DNA of 55,565 nucleotides from Synechococcales cyanobacterium GL140_1_metabat_312. GTDB taxonomy: Bacteria > Cyanobacteriota > Cyanobacteriia > Leptolyngbyales > Leptolyngbyaceae. Both the position numbers and the translations under genes were made by a program. Of this stretch, positions 25,279 through 45,046 are shown one piece after another. The stretch lies in the NCBI GenBank assembly GCA_025351345.1, contig JANXWB010000064.1, forward strand, positions 1 to 55,565. The letters are read 5' to 3'. Under the pieces are notes generated by a model that had not been told where the DNA came from, did no database searches, and saw only the letters and a list, made by a program, of their open reading frames with translations. Numbering within the stretch: position 1 is the stretch's first letter; the number at the start of each line of letters is the position of its first letter.

Positions 25279-25411
25279 ATAGATTCGATCCCCCTAAATC
25301 TCCCTTGAAAAGGGGGACTAAGAGTATAGAGAACAGAAGAGAGAAGAGAAACTACAAACTAAATATTCCGGTTCCCCCTTTTCAAGGGGGATTTAGGGGG
25401 ATCGAATCTAT
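25279..25411. repeat. MITE-like long inverted repeat
   Basis: Arms of about 39 bp at 25279-25317 and 25373-25411 are inverted copies with one or two differences; the core is CCCCCTAAAT...CCCTTGAAAAGGGGGA. A 55-bp purine-rich loop separates them. This AAATCCCCCT/AAGGGGGA-type element is widespread in cyanobacterial spacers. Each arm also contains its own small hairpin (CCCTT/AAGGG). It lies between selO and the ABC exporter and could act as a transcription barrier or a processed RNA hairpin. Confidence 0.75.
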
Positions 25412-30242: not shown

Positions 30243-30579
30243 GGGGCAGCTTCTCTCTAGAACATTTGGGAATGGCTACAAGTTTAAGTGGCAGAATTCC
30301 GGAATGTATAAATTTGAATACTGGTATTTTGCGGGCGGCTAGGTCGCGATCGTTGAATCCTGGACAGTATCGCGTTGTGATGATGGTTGAGAGGTTGGTG
30401 GCTGAATAGAGCGTTGAGATCGCTTTAGGCGGTACGAGATCGATCGCATTGGGATTCTCAAATCCAGATGAAGGATCGCGATCGCACTTCCCCCAACCGT
30501 CCTAAGCCTTATTGCTACACCCGTGACATGACAGCATTCAGTAATTCTGTTTGTTTAATTTTAGTAGCTTCGATCGAGT
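30243..30579. other. 337-bp spacer at the left edge of the accessory island
   Basis: No gene. Dense in HIP1-type sites. The right 89 bp (30489-30577) is the first copy of direct repeat A. The rest looks non-coding. Confidence 0.4.
30489..30577. repeat. direct repeat A, copy 1 (89 bp)
   Basis: Identical over 89 bp to 31419-31507. On the minus strand it reads SIEATKIKQTELLNAVMSRV plus stop in the frame of the HsdS-like relic. The two copies enclose exactly the MNT/HEPN module. The spacing between copies is 930 bp. Confidence 0.9.
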
Positions 30580-30993
30580 TTAAATCAAGAAGCTTCTGAT
30601 TTCGTCAGATAATAAGGATGTAATGAAATCAAAAATTTCTTCTGCTTTTTCGATCGCTTCTTGAAGTTCTTCTTCTGTCGGTTGTATCATATCACTGGGA
30701 TAACGAAATTCTGTCGCATAGGGCGTTAAGAGTTCTGAGGTTTCTTGATAGTGCTGAAAATCTGGATTGACAACGATCGCGAGTTGAAGGAGTAGACGCA
30801 GATCATGCGTTCTGGGAAAGGTTTGATCCTGTAGTACTAAGATACCTTTGAGTGCTTTCTCCGCACATTGCTGACAGTGATAGATGGCAATGTCTGAATA
30901 GATATCTGAATCACTGCTGAGTTTCTGGGCGGCGAGTAAATCATGTTGTGCTTTGATGATCCAATTTTTTATAAGCTCATCTTTTCTATCCAT
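30580..30993 (-). CDS. HEPN-domain toxin-like protein
   Basis: A 137-residue HEPN protein. The helical core is CQQCAEKALKGILVL followed by FPRTHDLRLLL, the family pattern in which the arginine and histidine contribute to the RNase site. HEPN proteins paired with MNT nucleotidyltransferases form type VII toxin-antitoxin systems in which the MNT enzyme modifies the HEPN RNase. It overlaps the MNT gene by 8 bp and its stop lies 3 bp from repeat A copy 1. The AAEKALKG-type second helix is intact. Confidence 0.85.
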   Translation of the reverse strand: MDRKDELIKNWIIKAQHDLLAAQKLSSDSDIYSDIAIYHCQQCAEKALKGILVLQDQTFPRTHDLRLLLQLAIVVNPDFQHYQETSELLTPYATEFRYPSDMIQPTEEELQEAIEKAEEIFDFITSLLSDEIRSFLI

Positions 30994-31351
30994 ATAAACA
31001 TCTCCCTTTCAATAAGATTTGATGTTCTAAAGATTGTGGGACTTGTGAAAATTTTTCGACTTCTTCGCGAGTCTTAACGAGGATGTCTAACGGATAAGGG
31101 ATATCTCTAAGGCATCGATAGGCAAGGGTCGATCGCTGAGTTGGTGAGATATCGCTGCTGGATAAAATTATGAGTAAGTCTAAATCACTATCTGCGTTTG
31201 GGGTTCCCCATGCATGAGAGCCAAACAAGAATATATTTTCTGGATTAAATTCTTTAACTAAGCGATCGGTTATGTCGAAGATGAGACGATCGCTTAGTGG
31301 GGAGTCCGTGGCTAGTGATTCTGTGGTGATTGGGAGTTGTTGGACGACCAT
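30986..31351 (-). CDS. MNT-type minimal nucleotidyltransferase antitoxin
   Basis: A 121-residue nucleotidyltransferase-fold protein. GSHAWGTPNADSDLD carries the G-S motif (G44-S45) and the paired metal acids D56 and D58; the third acid is D89 in YPLDILV. In MNT/HEPN pairs this enzyme adds AMP units to the HEPN toxin. All three acids are present, so activity is likely. Gene order (MNT first, short overlap, HEPN second) is the standard one. Confidence 0.87.
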   Translation of the reverse strand: MVVQQLPITTESLATDSPLSDRLIFDITDRLVKEFNPENIFLFGSHAWGTPNADSDLDLLIILSSSDISPTQRSTLAYRCLRDIPYPLDILVKTREEVEKFSQVPQSLEHQILLKGRCLYG

Positions 31352-31418: not shown

Positions 31419-31507
31419 TCCCCCAACCGTCCTAAGCCTTATTGCTACACCCGTGACATGACAGCATTCAGTAATTCTGTTTGTTTAATTTTAGTAGCTT
31501 CGATCGA
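31419..31507. repeat. direct repeat A, copy 2 (89 bp)
   Basis: Second copy of the exact 89-bp repeat. Unlike copy 1 it continues into an upstream coding-like stretch on the minus strand, so this copy is the one still joined to its original gene (HsdS-like relic). Confidence 0.9.
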
Positions 31508-31660
31508 CGCTTCTAATCGATCGCAAAACTCCATCAGCCGATCGTTTTCTTCGTCATCCCTAGTCGATTTCTCTACAGCCCATGACAAGAAAATCTGCAA
31601 GATTTCATCAAGATTGAACGAACCACCAAACCCCCCAAAGATCGATCGTTACGCTTTTCA
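31432..31660 (-). pseudogene. C-terminal relic, HsdS-like
   Basis: On the minus strand an uninterrupted frame without a start codon reads from about 31650 to a stop at 31452-31454: FNLDEILQIFLSWAVEKSTR, then DDEENDRLMEFCDRLEASIE and ATKIKQTELLNAVMSRV. The LMEFCDRLEA part resembles the coiled-coil end of type I restriction specificity subunits (L-M-x-L-C-D-x-L-E). The upstream part of the gene is missing, so it is a relic; its left end is set approximately. The identification as HsdS rests on that motif alone. Confidence 0.45.
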
Positions 31661-31699
31661 AGAAGACTCAATGCTGCTGGGTTATTCGTTACTGCGTTA
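31634..31699. repeat. direct repeat B, copy 1
   Basis: CCCAAAGATCGATCGT followed by CTTTTCAAGAAGACTCAATG and CTGCTGG. The same block recurs at 32343-32416 and 33055-33122, about 715 bp apart. On the plus strand this copy reads PKIDRYAFQEDSMLLGYSLL plus R and stop, like the end of a gene. It lies immediately before the ParD-like module. Confidence 0.8.
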
Positions 31700-32342: not shown

Positions 32343-32416
32343 TTTCGATCGCCCCCAAAGATCGATCGTCACGTCGCTTTTCAAGAAGACTCAATGCTGC
32401 TGGGGATTCTGAGAGG
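32343..32416. repeat. direct repeat B, copy 2
   Basis: Shares with copy 3 the extended block TTCGATCGC...CCAAAGATCGATCGTCAC ... GGGGATTCTGAG. It differs from copy 1 by a 3-bp insertion (TCG). It separates the ParD/ParE module from the HigB/HigA-like module and overlaps the false upstream extension of the latter. Confidence 0.8.
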
Positions 32417-33054: not shown

Positions 33055-33122
33055 TTCGATCGCACCCAAAGATCGATCGTCACTTTTCACGAAGACTCAA
33101 TAATGCTGGGGATTCTGAGGGT
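33055..33122. repeat. direct repeat B, copy 3
   Basis: Matches copy 2 from TTCGATCGC through GGGGATTCTGAGG, with a few small indels (TAATGCTG for TGCTGCTG). It begins 4 bp after the antitoxin stop and closes the HigB/HigA-like cassette. Confidence 0.8.
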
Positions 33123-35472: not shown

Positions 35473-35909
35473 AGCACAACCTCTTCATTAATTGGATCAA
35501 AAACGACCATCCGAAACCCCGGTTCTTCCAGCAACAATTCCCCCGCCTCCTCTTTAAACAACGTCTCAAAGGTGTTTCGATTCACTGCCAGATAAAGTAA
35601 TCTATCGGGATCTCTTTTTTGAAGTGTTCTGGCGTACATAAAGAATTGTCCCCAAGCATTTTCCAGATCATGAATCGGTGAAGGACTAAGAAAACTCTTG
35701 ATCTCAATAGCAATCTTCTCCGTTCCTCGTTCAGCCGCAATCAGCCTCTCCGCACCCAAATCCACATAAACTGACCGTCCACCAATTTTGAGCGTGAGCG
35801 GATCATCTGTAATCGTCCAGCCATCTTTAATCAAAGCGCTGTAAACGACATTGTGATAAAAATATCTTTGGCGGGCATAAGCTGCATCATATCCAAGCCC
35901 TTCAATCAT
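35460..35909 (-). CDS. xisH: XisH family nuclease-like protein, 5' end frameshifted
   Basis: A 149-residue XisH protein, with GWTITDDPL, D-L-x-AERLIAAERG and KIAIEIKSFLSPS giving the D...ExK pattern of PD-(D/E)xK nucleases. The usual XisH start, M-P-A-K-D-x-F-H-N, is present in another frame: ATG at 35878 reads MPAKDIF, then two extra bases near 35855-35860 shift the frame and the homology resumes at HNVVYSALIKDGW in the annotated frame. The frame shown therefore uses an unnatural start (MIEGLGYDAAYARQ). Either the gene is damaged, or a sequencing error is present, or it is translated from 35909. xisI follows. Confidence 0.75.
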   Translation of the reverse strand: MIEGLGYDAAYARQRYFYHNVVYSALIKDGWTITDDPLTLKIGGRSVYVDLGAERLIAAERGTEKIAIEIKSFLSPSPIHDLENAWGQFFMYARTLQKRDPDRLLYLAVNRNTFETLFKEEAGELLLEEPGFRMVVFDPINEEVVLWRS

Positions 35910-35939
35910 ACCTCAGTCCAAAAGCACCAAGCAATCGAT

Positions 35940-35967
35940 CCCACCGTCCTAGCCCATCTTGAGAACG
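35940..35967. repeat. direct repeat C, copy 3 (28 bp)
   Basis: Exact 28-bp match to 35068-35095 (CCCACCGTCCTAGCCCATCT plus TGAGAACG), 872 bp apart. It lies 31 bp upstream of the xisH frame and closes the XisH/XisI cassette. Confidence 0.85.
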
Positions 35968-36100
35968 GCGATAACCGAGGCTTAATCAAATACCATCAGC
36001 CTTCTCCAGAACTACAGCGATCGGAGTGAATAAAACTAACGATCGGACGGGTTTGTCCCGCATTCACTTGATCTTCACACAATCCAAATTAAATGATGTT

Positions 36101-36273
36101 TTAGAATGTATTTGTAGTACTCATAATTTTGTAATAAATTACAGGTTGTCTTGAGAGAATTGATGGATTTTAAGTCACGTTCAAAGACTTTGCCTTGGCT
36201 CGATAGGTTGTGTTTTCATAGCCAGCGACAAATTCCAGATAACTCGATCGGCAAATGTCAACAGATGAAGCAT
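36101..36273 (-). pseudogene. internally deleted copy of the 43.5-kb lipoprotein gene
   Basis: The 5' end (MLHLLTFADR from ATG at 36271-36273) matches the start MLNPLTFAYR of the gene at 43550-44128. The 3' end (about 36101-36236) reads YRAKAKSLNV, T, stop, NPSILSRQPVIYYKIMSTTN and TF, matching YRVNATSLKVTQDSSVLSEQ and PVTYYKIMSTTNTF without indels. About 430 bp in the middle is missing and one premature stop is present. DNA identity continues some 20 bp upstream of the start (ACGAAATTT). Confidence 0.82.
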
Positions 36274-36445
36274 AACGAAATTTATATTCGGTCGCCAAAA
36301 TTGTATCCTAGGAAACTATCAATTCTTATTATTGCTAATGGATGAATCTCTCCAAATTTGGGCATATTTGAAAGTGAGTGTTCTCTCCCTTTACTGTGGA
36401 GTGTTAGTATGTCACCTTTGTTTTGTCTAAGCCCCCGGTTTTTCC

Positions 36446-39400
36446 ATGAGCATTATTCAAGATTCTGTCCTCACGGGTTATTGTGTTACTGAACGACTTC
36501 ATATCGACGATCGGACGATCGTTTACCGAGGCTTGCGGGAACAGGATCAGCGGCCTGTTATTTTGAAATTGCTGCGTCGTGAGTACCCGACTCCTAGAGA
36601 ATTGTCACAGTTTCGCAACCAATATGACTTAGCCCGATCGCTTCACCTCCCCGGCGTAATTGAGACCTATGACCTAATTATTCATGACCAGGAGCACCGC
36701 TATGTGCTAGTTATGGAAGACTTTGGGGGGATAACGCTCACTCAGGCGTTGCAACAATGGGGACTTGATCGCCTAGGTGAAACAGTAAAAACCCTGCAAG
36801 ATTTTCTGACGATCGCCCTACAAATCGTCAAAGCCCTAGACGGAATTCATCGCCATAAAATTATTCATAAAGATCTCAAACCTTCCAATATTCTCATCCA
36901 TCCTGATACCCAAGAGGTCAAAATTATTGACTTTAGCAGTGCCTCTGGTCTCTCACGGGAGATCCAGGATGCGGTCAATCTCGCTGATCTTAAAGGTACA
37001 TTGGAGTATATTTCACCGGAACAGACTGGGCGGATTAATCGATATATTGATCATCGGACAGACTATTACTCATTGGGAATCACTTTTTTTCAATTGCTCA
37101 CGGGATCGGTTCCTTTTAATGATGATAATCCTATTCACCTTCTTCATAGTCATCTTGCGCAGTCTCCGCCATTAATTCATACCCTTAATCCTAACGTTCC
37201 TCCGATCGTTTCTGAGATCATTGCTAAACTCATGGCAAAAATGCCAGAAAATCGCTACCAGAGTATGATTGGGCTAAGTTATGATTTGCAGAACTGTCTG
37301 GCGCAATTGAATACTTCTGATCATATTCAAGATTTCCCCTTGGGACAGGGCGATCGGAGCGATCGGTTTATAATTTCTGATACCCTTTACGGGCGTGAAG
37401 CCGATATTTCTAAACTGCTGGAGAGCTTTGAGAAGATTGCGATCGGTGGACGGAGTGAACTTCTGCTCGTTACGGGAGACTCAGGCTTAGGTAAAACTGC
37501 CCTCATTCATGAAATTCATAAACCCGTAGCCTTGACCTGCGGCTACTTTGTTCGAGGTAAGTTTGAACAGTTTCAGCAAAATATTCCATTTTCCGGGATT
37601 GTTCAAGCTCTGCAAGCGCTGATCATACAATTGCTGAGCGAAAGCTTAGTGCAGATTACTCAGTGGAAAGAGTTGATTCTAAATGCATTGGGCGACAGTG
37701 CACAGATCATTATTGATCTAATTCCTCAACTTGAAGGCATCCTTGGCGCTCAACCCCCTGTCCCCAGCCTCTCTGGTATCTCTACTCAAAATCGTTTTCA
37801 TCTTTTATTTCAAAAATTCATTCAAGTTTTTGCCACGCCTGAATATCCTTTAGTAATATTTTTAGATGATTTGCAATGGGCAGATACAGCTTCGTTGAAT
37901 CTTATTAGAGTGCTATTGAGTAATGAGCAAAGTCGATCGCTTTTGGTCATTACAACATACCGCGATCGTGAAGTGACGATCGCCCATCCATTGATGACCC
38001 TGCTGGCGAATTTACAGTTGGAATGTCCCAATATTGTGACTGAAATTCATCTTTTACCTTTGTCTTCTGCTGATCTACGGTGCATGGTAAATGACACGCT
38101 TCATCTAGATCCTGTGGAAACAAATGCGTTGGCCGATCGGATATATCAAGTCACTCAAGGTAATCCTTTCTTCAGTAGTCAACTGCTTAAGTCTTTCTAT
38201 AGTGAGGGTTTGATTACGTTTGATTGGACTCTAGGGAAATGGATTATTGATCTTGTTGGCATTCAAGCGCGATCGTTAACGCCGGATGTTGTGGAATTTA
38301 TGGGTGCTCAGGTCTCCAAGTTGCCAATAGAGACTCAAGATGTATTGAAATTGGCGGCCTATATCGGGAGTCAATTTGATTTGGAAACCTTAGCGATCGC
38401 CCTATCTAGTGATGAAGCTAGTTCCTATGAATTCCTGATACAATTTCTGCATCCTGCAATAGAAGAAGGATTGATTTTCGCAAATTCTGATGTTCTCGAA
38501 GGGACATTGGATTGCGCCAACAATAGCTATCAATTTTTGCACGATCGAGTTCAACAGGCAGCCTACCAGCTCATTCCAGAATCACAACGTGCTGTGGTTC
38601 ATTTCAATATTGGTCAGCAACTTTTAACGCATATTTCTCCACCTCGTTTGGACGATCGACTGTTTGAAATTGTCGGTCAATTGAACTATGGGATTGGTCG
38701 GAGCGATTTGGCGGATTCAATAGAGCTTAGTCATCAGTTGCTTCTGCTTAATCAGCGGGCGGGTGCTAAAGCTATGGATGCAACGGCTTACGAGAGTGCG
38801 ATTCAATATTGGAGTCATGCTATTCGTTTGCTGAGCAACTATCCTTGGCAAGATCAATATGACTTGGCGCTAGATCTCCATAATGCTGCGACTACGGCGG
38901 CGGCGCTCAAGGGTGACTTTGAGCAGATGGAAAGGTGGAGTGCGACAGTGCTGCGAGAAGCCCAAAGTCCGATCGATCGCGTCACCGTTTATGAAGTTAA
39001 AATCCAATCCTACACCTCCCAAAATCGATTGGTTGACTCTATTGCGATCGCCCGTGAATCGCTAGCATTGTTCGGCGTATCTTTCCCAACGCCCCCAATC
39101 CCTCAGGATATTCAACAAGCATTGCAAAACACCGAAACATTATTAGAAGATTGTGCGATCGACGATCTAGCAAATTTGCCATTGATGACAAATCCAATCC
39201 AATTGTCCGTCATGCAACTGATATCAAGTGTCGTGCCTGCTGCTTTTCTGAGCGAACCTGCGCTCTTTCCACTTTTGATTTCCAGTCAGGTTGAGTCTTC
39301 AATACAGTATGGAAACTCGCCTCTCTCTTCTTTTAACTATGCTAATTATGGTGTCCTTCTCAATGCCTTTTTACAGGATCCGATCGCTGCGACTAGGTTC

Positions 39401-41872
39401 GGCGATCTAGGATTGAAACTAGCTGAAAAAGAACCATCAAAAGATATTAAATCTAGAGTTTTGTTTGTATTTGCGGCATTTATTCTGCATAGCCAATCTC
39501 ATCTCAAAGAAACATTGCCCATCTTACTTGAAAGCTATCAATATGCATTAGAAGTAGGAAACTGGGAGTATGTTGGATATTGCTTACAACATACTTGTTT
39601 TAACTCCTATTTCCTGGGTCATGAGTTAAATAATTTAGAACAGGAAATACAAACATCATTCCAAACCCTAACCAATTTGCATCAGACGACGAGTTTACAA
39701 TATGTTCAGATTTTCTGGCAAGTCGTTCTGAATTTGAAGGGACAATCTAAAATTCCTCATATCTTGATTGGTTCAGTCTACGATGAAGAGACTATCCTTC
39801 CATCCTTGATCGCGGCTCATGACATTACCGGGCTGCACCTTCTCTATACGAATAAACTCATAATCAGCTATCTCTTCGGAGAGTTTAGTCTTGCGCTAGA
39901 TTGCGGATCTAGAGGTCGTAGTTATTTGGCAGGAGGGACAGGATATGTGGATAGTGTGGTGTTTAATTTTTATGATTCCCTCACTTTACTAGCGGTTTAT
40001 CACGATCGTCCACAGTTGCAAGATCAATTACTTCAAGACGTTGTTGAAAATCAGCTTAGACTCAAACATTCCGCCAATCATGCCCCTATGAATCATCTTC
40101 ATAAGTTTTATCTTGTGGAAGCCGAGCGATATCGAGTTTTGGGCCAAAGAGGGGAAGCGATCGAATATTATGATTTGGCAATTTCTGGAGCAAAGACCTC
40201 TGGATATCTTAATGAAGAAGCACTTGCCTATGAATTGGCGGCTAGGTTTTATTTAGAATGGGAAAAGCCTAAGATCGCTCAGAGTTATCTGATTGATGCC
40301 TACTATCGCTATGAACGATGGGGGGCGATCGCTAAAATGCAACATTTAGAACGGCTCTATCCTCAGTTACTCATGCCGATTTTGCATCAAGAAATGTTGA
40401 ATAGTCATGATGGAGGTTCTTTCGGTCACACTACAAATACTTCCAACTTGCACTTAAATTTAGATCTTGCCACCGTGATGGAAGCTTCTCAACTCCTATC
40501 TGGGGAAATCCAGATGGATAGCCTGCTGGAGTCTTTAATGGATGTGGTGATTACTAGTGCAGGGGCAGAAAAAGCAGTCTTAATCTTGGCCGAGGAAGAG
40601 CATTGGCAGGTGGTTGCAGAAACTCTAGCTCGTCATCAAACTGTTGTTCGATCGATACCTTTAAGTGAATGTAATGCCCTACCTAAGGTGATTGTTAATT
40701 ATGTGATACATACGTCTGAAACATTAGTTCTAGAAGATGCTACCCAGGAAACGAGTTTTATCAATGATCCTTACCTAGGTGCCCACAAACCGAGAAGTAT
40801 CTTGTGTGCGCCCATTCAGTATCAGGGCAAAATGATTGGAATCTTATATCTGGAGAACAATTTAGTAACAGGTTCGTTTACCTCCGATCGTTTAAAAATC
40901 CTTAACATCATTACGACCCAAGCTGCAATTTCCCTACAGAATGCACAACTTTACGATCGCTTAGAACAAAAAGTAGAAGAGCGAACACTGCAAATTCAAC
41001 AGACAAATCAAAGTCTTATGGATACGTTATCTGCATTAAAACAGACCCAAACTCAACTTATTCAAACTGAAAAAATGTCTTCTCTTGGGCAAATGGTGGC
41101 GGGTTTTGCACATGAAATTAATAATCCTGTTAATTTTATCCATGGTAATCTCAAACATGCAGATCACTATTTTCAAGACCTATTAGGATTACTAAGTTGC
41201 TATCAGAAGTATTATCCTCAACCCATCCCAGAAATTATCAGCTATCTTGAAGGAGTTGATATTGATTATGTTCTAGAAGACTTACCCAAACTCTTCGCCT
41301 CTATGCAAATGGGGACAGAACGAATTCGAGAAATTGTCTTGTCTCTGCGGAACTTTTCTCGTCTTGATGAATCAGTGAACAAAGCCGTCAATGTGCATGA
41401 AGGAATAGAAAGTACATTGCTACTGTTGAATCATCGTTTAAAGTCAGGAATTAAAGTTGTAAGACAATATCAAAAGCTTCCACCTATTCATTGCTATCCT
41501 GCACCGCTCAATCAAGTCTTTATGAATTTGTTGAGCAATGCGATCGATGCACTAAATGACTATGATAAAAGTTGTGGCAAAAGTTCTGAATTTGGTGCTG
41601 ACTGGGTTCCGACGATCGACATTGTAACAAAGTTACTAGATTCATCAGTGATAATTCAGATTTTAGATAATGGCGCTGGGATCCCAGAAGAGATTATAAA
41701 GAAAGTCTTTGATCCGTTCTTCACCACCAAGCCTGTAGGTAGCGGCACCGGGTTAGGATTGTCGATTAGCTATCAGATTATCGTGGACAAACATAAAGGA
41801 AAAATCTCCTGTCAATCTAAACCTGGAAAGGGTGCCGAGTTTACGATCGAACTTCCTATCTCAATGATTTGA
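36446..41872 (+). CDS. giant Ser/Thr kinase - AAA - GAF - histidine kinase
   Basis: An 1808-residue soluble signalling protein. Domains: Ser/Thr kinase-like (about 10-280) with [13 protein letters not shown] near 141 and IIDFSSAS where DFG is expected; AAA/STAND ATPase (about 315-620) with YGREADIS and Walker A GDSGLGKT near 342; a long helical TPR-like region (650-1300); GAF (about 1335-1500); coiled coil; HisKA with [16 protein letters not shown] near 1545; HATPase with [21 protein letters not shown] and [19 protein letters not shown]. This multi-kinase layout is known in cyanobacteria. The DFS variant and HKD (for HRD) may reduce kinase activity. No response regulator is linked. A strong terminator follows. 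Confidence 0.92.
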
Positions 41873-41966: not shown

Positions 41967-43019
41967 CTATCTACCAATCAAAATTGGCTCATTATCGATC
42001 GAAGGAGCATTCTCAGAAGGATGCGCTAGAGCCGCTTCTCGTTCTGGCTTAACGATTTTCTCCATCAAATATTCGATCGTCTCAGACTGTACCCAGCCGT
42101 GGGATGAAATGATATCACCCAAGCACTGACCTGTGACTTTTTGCTCTTGTAGTGCGATGTTGAGCTGATCGTATGTCAGCAAACCTGCTTCGATAAGATA
42201 AGTTCCCAGTGGTTTGACTTTACGAACTAGATAAGAACGAAGCTCATAACTGTACATAAAGTTTCCATTGATAGTCTTAGGAACTTTGATGTGAGCGAGA
42301 AGATCACTCATCAAAATTACGAACATATCAAAGGTCTTATCAATAATGCGTAATGCTTCTTGACGTTCCTCTGGAGTGATTGAAAGACTATTTAAGAACT
42401 TTTGGGAATCATCTGTATACATTGTGTGGCTAGAGTCCACGATCGTATGCATATCGCCAAAGTAGCGACAGTCACGGCCATCAATAATTTTTAGCTCTTG
42501 GGCAATAGCTTGAGTTGCTTCTAAGAAAATATCAGCAGTGGACTCGATCGATTCGATTAAAATAACTCGATGTATAGCAGTTGCTGATTCCGCTTCTTGA
42601 AACATCCAACGGACAACTTCACGCTGAATACGTGTTTCGTCACTCCAAAGAAAGCGGAGTGATTCAGTGAACTTAATGGATTCATCGTAGCCTAACTTTT
42701 TCAAGTCTTCCAAGAACCAGATCCAATGATCTTCATCCTCATAGGTATGTTGATTGACTAATGCTTGAATCGGTTCAGTTGTCGGCTCAACGCGAAGAAC
42801 ATGGCGATTCAATTCACTGAAGCTCATCACAAAAAAGGCAAAGCAGGGTGCAAATGCCATGCGATCGCTAGGATTGATTTTGGTATCCCGAAGATATTCA
42901 AAAAAAGGAGCTTTGGCAAACGTTGCCTGCTTCTCTTTAATCAAGGCAAGAAGTTCTTCCACAGATATACACCCTTTCAAACTAATAATTTGATGCCTGA
43001 AGTCTTGCCAAAAAAACAT
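41967..43019 (-). CDS. haem-oxygenase-like metalloprotein with C-terminal MshEN-like domain
   Basis: A 350-residue soluble protein. The helical N-terminal 250 residues carry H91-x2-E94-x3-H98 (QHTYEDEDH) and H191-x3-D195-x2-H198 (DMHTIVDSSH), with glutamates in IESIEST at 156-159. This fits the haem-oxygenase-like diiron fold (HDO/TENA/CADD-like) and would make it a redox enzyme or sensor. Residues 270-323 (PLGTYLIEAGLLTYDQLNIA, LQEQ, then LGDIISSHGW) resemble the T2SSE-N/MshEN domain, a known c-di-GMP binder in MshE. The fusion is inferred by eye. Its upstream region has 22-bp direct repeats. Confidence 0.55.
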   Translation of the reverse strand: MFFWQDFRHQIISLKGCISVEELLALIKEKQATFAKAPFFEYLRDTKINPSDRMAFAPCFAFFVMSFSELNRHVLRVEPTTEPIQALVNQHTYEDEDHWIWFLEDLKKLGYDESIKFTESLRFLWSDETRIQREVVRWMFQEAESATAIHRVILIESIESTADIFLEATQAIAQELKIIDGRDCRYFGDMHTIVDSSHTMYTDDSQKFLNSLSITPEERQEALRIIDKTFDMFVILMSDLLAHIKVPKTINGNFMYSYELRSYLVRKVKPLGTYLIEAGLLTYDQLNIALQEQKVTGQCLGDIISSHGWVQSETIEYLMEKIVKPEREAALAHPSENAPSIDNEPILIGR

Positions 43020-43060
43020 TAACTTACAATAGTTAATGAATTCTTACCACTCACAGGTTC

Positions 43061-43131
43061 TCAGAAAAATTACTGATTGTCATCAGAAAAACTACTGACT
43101 ATCCTCAGAAAAATTACTGACTATCCTCAGA
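43061..43131. promoter_or_regulatory. 22-bp direct repeats upstream of the diiron-like gene
   Basis: Units at 43061-43082, 43083-43104 and 43105-43126, plus a partial fourth (TCAGA), follow the pattern TCAGAAAAATTACTGACTAT plus two bases. The units differ at a few positions. The 22-bp period is two helix turns, which places each copy on the same DNA face. The array starts 42 bp upstream of the ATG of the divergently read gene at 43019, so it is well placed to bind a regulator. Confidence 0.7.
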
Positions 43132-43280
43132 TTTTGAAGCTTTAAAAGGGGAAATTGTAAAGATTCCCATCAAGACAGATATTTAGTCCGTAAACCCACA
43201 AGTATTTGTATCTACCAGATAGATCCAAAATATTTTTCTTTATCAACTAAGCCTCCCAAGATTAAATCTAAATTATTTCT

Positions 43281-43350
43281 AGAAACTAGTTGCGATCGCA
43301 TTCACTGGACAAGTTGGAATACACTGCTCACAGACCACGCAACGCGATCG
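43281..43350 (-). pseudogene. duplicated 3' end of the NIL-ferredoxin gene
   Basis: Seventy bases match 44220-44289 with one difference (GCTCAC for GTTCAC). They encode the last residues of the ferredoxin (RCVVCEQCIPTCPVNAIATS plus F). The matching DNA begins at the stop codon end and stops abruptly at CGATCG. The two copies are 939 bp apart and enclose the lipoprotein gene and the MITE. Confidence 0.9.
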
Positions 43351-43396
43351 TTCTTACCTCAATTAGAAACTACGATCGGTCTTGAAATTCATTTCA

Positions 43397-43500
43397 ATTA
43401 AGGGCGTTGTTAATTTGCGGTATGACGAGATTTCTGTAACTACTGCAAAATCGTTATAAAATCCGAGACTTCATACCTTTTTTCACCAACGCCCCATTAA
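43397..43500. mobile_element. MITE-like element with ATTAA target duplication
   Basis: GGGCGTTGTTAATTTGCGGT plus ATGA at the left (from 43402) is mirrored by TCATACCTTTTTTCACCAAC plus GCCC(C) at the right (to 43495). The two ends share GGGCGTTG-T-A and GGTATGA. Both sides are bordered by ATTAA (43397-43401 and 43496-43500), which fits a 5-bp target-site duplication. There is no coding capacity; a transposase must act in trans. Confidence 0.72.
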
Positions 43501-43549
43501 GCTTTACCAGAATTTGATTCAGAATTCTGTATTATCTAAATCAATTTTT

Positions 43550-44128
43550 TTAGAATGTATTTGTAGTACTCATGATTTTATAATAAGTCACAGGTTGTTC
43601 AGAGAGAACAGATGAATCTTGAGTTACTTTCAAAGACGTTGCATTGACTCGATAGGTTGTGTTTTCATAGCCAGCCACAAAGTTTCCTTCTCCTTGTTCT
43701 CTAGCATTAGGAAAATTTCTACCCTCTGAAGGTGCAGACATTGCCACCTCTCGATAAAACAACTTTTTATCCTGTCCCATACAAATTGAAACCTGAATCG
43801 ACTTCGTTTCAAAATAAGCCACAGGGGTTGCTTTTGGACAACTGACTTCACCCTTAGCAGTTACGTTTGGTTTGGTCCTAGTGTAGGATTCAGGTGTTTT
43901 AGCAATGGTTGCTGTTGGTTTCTTTGTGATTGTTTTTTCAGTTGATGGTGCAGTTGGGGTTTGGGCAGTTTGAGGTGCAGTGCTAGTTTGAGGCTTTTCC
44001 GCGATGGGTGCTGGACTTGTAGCGGTATCAGGGGTCGTACTACTGCAACCATGAGCAAGTAACCCAACGGAAGTTAATAGTGTCAAATTCCAAATAATTC
44101 GATAAGCAAACGTTAATGGATTAAGCAT
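43550..44128 (-). CDS. lipoprotein with Ser/Thr/Pro-rich linker, unknown
   Basis: A 192-residue exported lipoprotein: a signal peptide and lipobox LLAHGC (cysteine about 28), then a low-complexity linker of about 65 residues rich in T, P, S, A and K, then a C-terminal domain (SCPKATPVAYFETKSIQVSI, CMGQDKKLFYREVAMSAP). Two cysteines there may form a disulfide. The family is not recognised. A decayed paralogue lies at 36101-36273. The gene is enclosed between a copied and the intact 3' end of the ferredoxin gene, indicating insertion at that site. Confidence 0.65.
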   Translation of the reverse strand: MLNPLTFAYRIIWNLTLLTSVGLLAHGCSSTTPDTATSPAPIAEKPQTSTAPQTAQTPTAPSTEKTITKKPTATIAKTPESYTRTKPNVTAKGEVSCPKATPVAYFETKSIQVSICMGQDKKLFYREVAMSAPSEGRNFPNAREQGEGNFVAGYENTTYRVNATSLKVTQDSSVLSEQPVTYYKIMSTTNTF

Positions 44129-44217
44129 TACGAAATTTGTATAGGCCAGCCAGAATCTTACTGCATCTATATAAACTTCACAAGAATGTCATAACTTGTA
44201 TCTGTATATTTATCTTA

Positions 44218-44622
44218 TTAGAAACTAGTTGCGATCGCATTCACTGGACAAGTTGGAATACACTGTTCACAGACCACGCAACGCGATCGGGTAAAGGTCA
44301 ACATTGCCGTTTGCGGGTCTAAAGTGAGCGCTTCCGTCGGACAGACTCCTGTGCAAAGACCGCAGTGAACACAGAGATCTTCATCAATAGAAATCTCACG
44401 GCTAGCAAAGGAAACATTAATATCTTGGGTTCGCATCCAGTCGATCGCCGCATCAAGCGCATCAATGTCTCCCGCAAGTTCAACCACCAGTTTACCAATT
44501 TGGTTTGGAGCAACTTGGGCACGAATGATATTCGCTGCAACATTGAAATCTTTCGCCAGCCTATAGGTAACAGGCATTTGGACCGATCGCCGAGGGAACG
44601 TTAGAGTCACACGTTTTTTCAC
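44218..44622 (-). CDS. NIL-domain 4Fe-4S ferredoxin
   Basis: A 134-residue protein with an N-terminal NIL domain (about 1-75, ferredoxin-like fold also found in methionine transporters) and two 4Fe-4S motifs: CVHCGLCTGVCP and CVVCEQCIPTCP, each CxxCxxCxxxCP. It should carry two [4Fe-4S] clusters and pass electrons in the cytosol. The family is widespread in cyanobacteria. Its 3' end has been duplicated at 43281-43350. It is divergent from the Ycf20-like gene. Confidence 0.9.
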   Translation of the reverse strand: MKKRVTLTFPRRSVQMPVTYRLAKDFNVAANIIRAQVAPNQIGKLVVELAGDIDALDAAIDWMRTQDINVSFASREISIDEDLCVHCGLCTGVCPTEALTLDPQTAMLTFTRSRCVVCEQCIPTCPVNAIATSF

Positions 44623-44713
44623 AACTTTCTCGTAAGTTCAATGTGGGTTGAGCTGACTTTTAATTTTGGGCTTTAATATAGTTCTAGTTTAGACCTTCCC
44701 ACATCACACCACT

Positions 44714-45046
44714 ATGCAAGATACTCGTCTCGATCGTATTTTGACAGAATCAGGCTCTCGCATTGAAACCTGGTTCCAAAATCCTTGGCGGCGCTTGGTT
44801 GCGATCGTAATTATGCTGTTGGGTGGGTTTTTCTTAGGGAATATTGTGACGACGACGGCGGGGCAGTCTACTCAATATGATGGTGTCATTGCACTTGTGT
44901 TTGTGGCAATGGTCGAGTCCGTAAGTTGGATTGCTTATCGAGGAAAGGCGTTTGTGGCCCGATCGCTATGGTTGGAAAGTGTCAATATGTTAAAGATTGG
45001 CTTTATCTATGCATTGTTTTTGGAGGCGTTTAAATTAGGCAGTTAA
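44714..45046 (+). CDS. Ycf20-like (DUF565) membrane protein
   Basis: A 110-residue protein with two to three hydrophobic segments: RRLVAIVIMLLGGFFLGNIV, VIALVFVAMVESVSWIAYRG and MLKIGFIYALFLEAFKLGS. The E-S-V-S-W-I-A-Y-R-G and NML-K-I-G-F pattern is that of DUF565/Ycf20. Plant members influence non-photochemical quenching; the molecular role in cyanobacteria is not settled. It is monocistronic by position. Confidence 0.85.
   Translation: MQDTRLDRILTESGSRIETWFQNPWRRLVAIVIMLLGGFFLGNIVTTTAGQSTQYDGVIALVFVAMVESVSWIAYRGKAFVARSLWLESVNMLKIGFIYALFLEAFKLGS

Follow-up and report, generated by a model that had tools for sequence, protein, structure and literature searches.

A Duplicated Ferredoxin Gene End in a Cyanobacterial Draft Genome Is Most Likely a Recombination Scar and Not a Cassette Boundary

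A 71-bp direct repeat pairs the 3′ end of a ferredoxin-like gene with a displaced copy. Most likely the repeat is a known kind of recombination scar and not the boundary of a cassette. The lipoprotein-like gene located between the two copies is probably the usual neighbor of the ferredoxin gene rather than a new insertion, as judged by alignment with a related genome in which the same two genes adjoin. A tempting cassette reading of the locus is thereby corrected, and the locus becomes a clear small example of how short gene-end copies can mark the junctions of recombination, a help in reconstructing how gene order has changed in cyanobacteria. If the pattern proves to recur genome-wide, such copies would offer a means to date and orient changes of gene neighborhood.

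The DNA analyzed here (the window, 55,565 nucleotides) is one contig (C94) of G000, the 3.85-Mb draft genome of Synechococcales cyanobacterium GL140_1_metabat_312 (Leptolyngbyaceae), which consists of 100 contigs. The genus is represented in the search set by four genomes (G000, own genome included, and G001, G002, and G003), and the family by 42.

Structure of the Ferredoxin Locus

On the minus strand, the order of elements is the ferredoxin gene (fdx), lipoprotein gene A, a MITE-like element, a small fdx-end fragment, the displaced tail copy, a c-di-GMP gene, (a kinase gene on the plus strand), lipoprotein copy B, and tract X. The features are as follows (basis in parentheses).

44218–44622, minus strand: intact ferredoxin-like gene (fdx), 134 amino acids, with a NIL domain and 4Fe-4S (Fer4) domains (ORF list, domain search)
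44219–44289, minus strand: repeat copy inside fdx, being the 3′ end of the gene (self-comparison of the window)
43550–44128, minus strand: lipoprotein-like gene A, 192 amino acids, found at the equivalent place in G002 (ORF list, G002 comparison)
43402–43495, no strand assigned: MITE-like element, 94 bp, flanked on both sides by ATTAA (read from sequence)
43362–43378, minus strand: possible third, shorter fdx-end fragment, CGATCG plus 11 exact bases across the stop codon (shuffles, random draws)
43280–43350, minus strand: displaced copy of the ferredoxin 3′ end, 70/71 (self-comparison of the window)
41967–43019, minus strand: gene with an MshE-related c-di-GMP-binding motif, 350 amino acids (NF053729)
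36446–41872, plus strand: 1808-amino-acid protein with Pkinase, AAA_16, GAF, and HATPase_c (Pfam domains)
36099–36287, minus strand: lipoprotein copy B, decayed, with about 402 bp of its middle missing in G002 coordinates (DNA search, alignment)
35940–36125, minus strand: tract matching the end of the G002 lipoprotein gene and its downstream sequence at 183/186 positions (alignment to G002)

The two repeat copies (43280–43350 and 44219–44289) are 71 bp long, identical at 70/71 positions, and separated by 939 bp from start to start (self-BLAST E = 5.7e-29), in good agreement with a first-pass annotation of this DNA, which had described a 70-bp copy of the ferredoxin end with one mismatch at a distance of 939 bp. 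The right copy comprises 71 of the final 72 bases of the minus-strand ferredoxin ORF. In the displaced tail, the match ends at the second base of the stop codon and is followed by the G of TAG and then by foreign sequence, and thus an in-frame stop is kept (TAG vs TAA in fdx). Searched at the DNA level with the repeat region, the own genome yielded no third copy at E ≤ 0.001, and the final 23 bases of fdx, used as a pattern with up to three mismatches, found both copies and one three-mismatch match on contig C28. An exact 11-bp piece of the ferredoxin end, preceded by CGATCG, adjoins the tail copy at 43362–43372; its score was reached in 5/2000 dinucleotide shuffles and in 55/20000 random draws of window 50-mers (those near the fdx locus were skipped). 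This fragment and the decayed lipoprotein copy at 36099–36287 are additions to the first-pass annotation.

Lipoprotein gene A lies on the same strand as fdx between both repeat copies. Its product has an N-terminal hydrophobic stretch ending in cysteine, on which its lipoprotein-like character was judged by eye, and matches no family in Pfam and NCBIfam. ORFs of at least 50 amino acids wholly between the two repeat copies are gene A and two shorter same-strand ORFs overlapping it, and no recombinase ORF was seen between the copies in the ORF list or in the Pfam and NCBIfam searches with lipoprotein A. The MITE-like element (ends GGGCGTTG/CAACGCCC) has terminal inverted repeats and a target duplication, as read from sequence. 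It occurs once in the own genome, where multiple copies would be expected of a MITE, and has one diverged match each in G003 (76%) and G002 (73%) and none in G001 (E ≤ 0.01). The 192-amino-acid ORF and the 94-bp element correspond to the lipoprotein gene and the MITE that the first-pass annotation placed between the copies.

Neither tRNA nor tmRNA was found across the window, and a tRNA-type target was rejected on this basis. A structured RNA was likewise rejected, as an Rfam search of 35800–36450 gave no match at E ≤ 1 and that of 42900–44750 gave one sub-threshold match (E 0.39; 22.3 bits vs a gathering score of 37). Promoter and terminator sites were counted no more often than in shuffles.

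The Ferredoxin Neighborhood in Related Genomes

In G002, a lipoprotein gene whose product is 84% identical to lipoprotein A is located directly downstream of the ferredoxin gene on the same strand (order fdx–lipoprotein–X), and no tail copy was found at this locus. The first-pass annotation had proposed an insertion of the lipoprotein gene at the 3′ end of ferredoxin, and had named as evidence to the contrary a tail copy in relatives that lack the lipoprotein. What was found is the converse, a lipoprotein gene that has no tail copy beside it. This likewise uncouples the two and leaves the inserted-cassette reading unsupported. An integrase island would further be expected to have an empty site in relatives, with the cargo absent; G002 has the lipoprotein gene at the equivalent place.

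In G001, the ferredoxin gene is followed by sequence that we take from its ORF to be transposase-like; the lipoprotein gene is not beside fdx, and the lipoprotein query has no match in that genome. In G003, which is 69% complete, the contig stops inside the ferredoxin tail, and the final 23 bases of that tail were not found with up to three mismatches. Across the family, the ferredoxin query matches 39 of the 42 genomes and the lipoprotein query matches two, the own genome and G002. Thirty fdx loci were read (those of nine matching genomes lie outside this set), one of them being cut at the tail; among the other 29, with 703–1500 bp available downstream, the tail copy is present only in the own genome.

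Ages of the Two Duplications and the Region Beyond the Tail Copy

Lipoprotein copies A and B differ at 29/193 sites and the fdx tails at 1/71 (Fisher p = 0.0008), which indicates that the tail copy is younger than the lipoprotein duplication and that the two were made separately, barring gene conversion. In comparison with G002, lipoprotein A has 16/193 differences and the fdx tail 6/71 (p = 1.0); this equal divergence is expected of a jointly inherited unit. Site patterns are A=B at 7, B=G002 at 6, A=G002 at 20, and all different at 3 sites. The separation of A and B may have occurred near or before the G002 split, or B may have decayed faster.

Copy B is located 7.4 kb away from the fdx/lipoprotein A locus. 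The adjoining X (35940–36098) is the equivalent of the sequence that follows the G002 lipoprotein gene and is 156/159 identical to it, G002 having about 50 bp extra within X. The identity extends through the 27 bp of B adjoining X (27/27) and drops to 88/107 in the adjoining part of B, so that a 186-bp, mostly intergenic tract (35940–36125) with 98.4% identity to G002 borders on sequence that has diverged much more. Over the stretch that runs from lipoprotein A to the genes past fdx, 200-bp blocks have 62–94% identity to G002. This sharp step at the B/X border suggests that the tract was exchanged between lineages; alternatively, X could have been conserved by selection. An identity profile over fdx and its upstream region against G002 and G003 showed no clear mosaic.

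The c-di-GMP gene is the next gene past the tail copy, 260 bp on, and is convergent with the kinase gene, the pair being located between the tail copy and copy B. The same pair is present in G001 on a contig without fdx (69% DNA identity over 6.6 kb) and was not found in G002. The c-di-GMP protein query matches 14 of the 42 family genomes at E ≤ 1e-20, own included, and has no match in G002 and G003 at this threshold. Of the 13 positive genomes other than the own, some with short contigs, 11 also have an fdx match (E ≤ 1e-40), and in these the two matches are on separate contigs or more than 500 kb apart. Matches to the G001 flank next to the kinase gene are spread over five different G000 contigs, so that polarity for the ancestral place of the pair was not obtained.

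Gene-End Copies Elsewhere in the Genome

The first-pass annotation compared the ferredoxin locus with an MNT/HEPN gene pair in the same window and saw in the two a general process. The shared geometry is real, that repeat being 89 bp long, identical, and spaced by 930 bp. The features of this case and of a further one are as follows.

31419–31507, minus strand: 3′ end of an hsdS remnant with its 3′ flank (repeat comparison)
30489–30577, minus strand: identical displaced copy of the hsdS-remnant end (repeat comparison)
30580–31351, minus strand: HEPN (30580–30993) and MNT (30986–31351) pair between the hsdS-end copies (domain search)
L141 8283–8485, 5893–5971, and 10480–10693 (G000 C77): narB-like 3′-end sequences, two of them displaced copies

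The repeated end in the window is presumably that of a short hsdS remnant, and the downstream genes carry HEPN (PF05168) and Polbeta/NTP_transf_2 domains. G002 carries an intact hsdS (PF01420), immediately downstream of which lie an MNT gene and a HepT-like gene (PF01934); the latter is of a different subfamily from the window HEPN. On G000 C77, a similar hsdS remnant precedes a gene that we take to be MNT-like (both this label and that of the window remnant being assigned from motifs in the translations), and G001 C159 has two hsdS-type ends about 0.9 kb apart. More broadly, three genomes of the genus have hsdS 3′ ends or fragments next to small genes, of the MNT/HEPN type or others (L054 1501–1608; L055 1501–1604; L060 1501–1545 and 2332–2451; window 31441–31548).

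Two other repeats were observed in the window. A 50–70 bp repeat occurs in three copies about 0.7 kb apart (31632–31681, 32344–32413, and 33055–33119), with a small gene pair, presumably toxin–antitoxin-like, between copies, and is not matched again in the 776 kb sampled beyond the window. An inverted-repeat element with 39-bp arms (25279–25411) has partial relatives in 15/39 sampled stretches of the own genome.

Recurrence was assessed in 832 kb of the own genome, comprising the window and 776 kb outside it (20% of the genome). Direct-repeat pairs of at least 30 bp with at least 88% identity, 150–3000 bp apart, number five within the window and 27 outside. For 14 of these 27, ORFs at both copies were listed; the other 13 were judged by place and sequence (nine of the 12 pairs at the repeat-rich start of C90, two further pieces from paralogues in tandem on C10, and two of the four pairs in a repeat cluster on C77). 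Two cases stand out, the gene names of which are assumed from motifs in the translations. On C10, the 5′ end and upstream region of a presumably Roco-like GTPase gene are copied 0.8 kb upstream around two small genes (L078 16247–16352 and 17054–17159). On C77, the 3′ end and flank of a presumably narB-like gene are copied 2.2 kb downstream, past a 219-amino-acid gene and a putative rnc (158/202 aligned bases, including two of the C77 repeat pieces), and a second 3′-end copy is located past a putative thrS (71/78), such that the gene and its two copies are set apart by rnc with the 219-amino-acid gene and by thrS. Since narB-like and thrS sequences are on different contigs in other genomes, the C77 order may also be rearranged.

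A scan of 674 ORFs of at least 100 amino acids (those below 330 bases being unused) for copies of their 3′ ends, 5′ ends, and middles within 6 kb (E ≤ 1e-5) gave the following matches outside ORFs: 3′ copies downstream on the same strand, three, and upstream, two; 5′ copies upstream, three, downstream on the same strand, three, and on the opposite strand, one; and middles, four. Ten more matches are inside ORFs (five 3′ ends, two 5′ ends, and three middles). Several matches derive from one repetitive C90 stretch and dubious C77 ORFs; without these, five out-of-ORF cases, selected by eye, are left, of which fdx, one narB-like copy, the Roco-like 5′ end, and a weak C10 match (48 bp, 81%) are on the side predicted by displacement and a 38-bp C11 match is on the other.

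Partial gene-end copies past a gene thus recur, but they are few, and they are not confined to 3′ ends, to spacings of 0.6–1 kb, or to one kind of cargo. The general process proposed earlier is partly supported: it gains the two narB-like 3′ copies and the Roco-like 5′ end within the 776 kb and loses from the count over 674 ORFs, in which there is no clear excess on the predicted sides. The process may recur in this genome, and a new mechanism is not needed; no dedicated machinery was found. A bolder reading, which we consider unlikely, is that new downstream neighbors have been repeatedly spliced in at resident gene ends in this genus, each leaving a displaced end as a dated scar (fdx, hsdS, narB-like twice, and the Roco-like 5′ end), so that gene-order change would be readable as a stratigraphy of gene-end fossils, with breaks possibly favored at CGATCG.

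Origin of the Displaced Ferredoxin End

The explanation that we tentatively favor, at somewhat less than an even chance, is that two alternative downstream haplotypes of fdx were put in tandem by one-sided, homology-anchored recombination. Haplotype 1 would be the fdx–lipoprotein arrangement seen in G002, and the predicted haplotype 2 would have fdx followed directly by the c-di-GMP/kinase pair, decayed lipoprotein B, and the X flank. A single recombination event would have used homology as an anchor on one side only, the other side being joined without it, and the end of the second ferredoxin gene would have stayed as the displaced 71-bp copy. Import could have come from either side, as both directions would leave an identical structure; we infer the second haplotype, the import direction, and the joining mechanism.

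Homology-facilitated illegitimate recombination is expected to leave part of the anchor gene as a displaced copy at the junction, and such a copy is present. The G002 order fdx–lipoprotein–X without a tail copy, and the equal divergence of lipoprotein A and fdx from G002, speak for this explanation. Because the match runs two bases into the stop codon and the displaced tail is still closed in frame, it may once have been a complete gene end with other downstream DNA. The position of the c-di-GMP gene immediately past the tail copy together with the absence of a detectable pair in G002 also counts for the joining of two haplotypes, as do the partial copies past the same gene end at the narB-like and Roco-like genes; the identity step at X is consistent with exchange between lineages. 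Against it, the predicted donor arrangement (fdx, then the kinase pair) was not found in the 11 other genomes with both matches. If A and B separated near the G002 split, about 6/71 tail differences would be expected and one is seen, which argues against joining unless the haplotypes came from one species. The lack of a clear excess in the gene-end count, the lack of a clear fdx mosaic, and the possible conservation of X by selection also weigh against it.

The main rival is local copying, in which 71 bp of the fdx end (and the smaller piece) would have been used as filler in a break about 0.9 kb downstream during repair or replication, unrelated to the lipoprotein gene; we regard it as a possible, if rather doubtful, origin. 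The 11-bp fragment beside the tail copy fits local copying better than haplotype joining, in that two pieces of one gene end lie side by side, and the youth of the tail copy relative to the lipoprotein duplication is also in its favor. Moreover, the end of the fdx copy and that of the hsdS copy each coincide with CGATCG or lie 1 bp away, a proximity shared by 1.6% of window positions; this coincidence was noticed post hoc, and the narB-like copies do not show it clearly. Chance may account for the small fragment, as the shuffles and draws above indicate, and local copying leaves unexplained why the copy ends at the stop codon. A single tandem duplication of the fdx tail and lipoprotein, after which the kinase pair entered the second copy and lipoprotein B decayed, would give the observed order from fdx and lipoprotein A through the tail copy to lipoprotein B and X. 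This scenario is very unlikely: it is largely refuted by the unequal ages of the two duplications, unless gene conversion evened the tails, and the fdx–lipoprotein intergenic sequence was not found between the tail copy and B (blastn word 9, E ≤ 1e-3).

The insertion of a lipoprotein cassette at the fdx 3′ end by a general cassette process, with formation of the 70-bp duplication, draws on the resemblance to the MNT/HEPN geometry and on the differing partners after hsdS ends, where G002 has MNT with a HepT-like gene of another subfamily and G000 C77 a similar MNT with a truncated partner. It was rejected on the G002 arrangement, in which the lipoprotein is at the equivalent place without the duplication, and is highly improbable also in that no recombinase is seen between the copies and that similar geometries elsewhere have different cargo and spacing, one of them involving a 5′ end. 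An assembly error at the short repeat is conceivable in a draft of 100 contigs, the more so as the G003 contig stops inside the same ferredoxin tail; we consider it the most improbable origin, as the copies differ by one base, their flanks are unlike, and the fdx–lipoprotein adjacency is independently present in G002.

Comparison With Known Systems

A literature search on gene-end cassettes and on a ferredoxin–lipoprotein island returned nothing useful. Genomic islands integrate at gene 3′ ends by means of tyrosine recombinases, and, as in such islands, a duplicated gene 3′ end flanks the segment studied here. Unlike genomic islands, the fdx unit has no recombinase ORF that was seen and the window no tRNA or tmRNA, the segment is shorter than 1 kb, and its gene adjoins fdx in G002 too.

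Recombination associated with HIP1 (CGATCG) has been described in cyanobacteria (PMC4390886), and the bordering of two displaced ends in the window on CGATCG resembles it. The likeness is qualified by the high frequency of CGATCG here (about 5 per kb), and the link was drawn post hoc, other loci not showing it clearly.

The two-haplotype explanation calls on a described process, one-sided homologous (homology-facilitated illegitimate) recombination (PMC3240628). This process has been proposed for the displaced ends of type VI secretion system (T6SS) effector genes and orphan immunity arrays in Vibrio cholerae (PMC5361080). Unlike the T6SS effectors as portrayed there, the ferredoxin is conserved and has no variable 3′ part; unlike those arrays, the donor arrangement here is a predicted one, and the lipoprotein has no established partnership with ferredoxin. 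The structure itself is alike in both, with an intact gene, a partner, and then the displaced 3′ end of that gene together with an alternative downstream set (PMC5361080).
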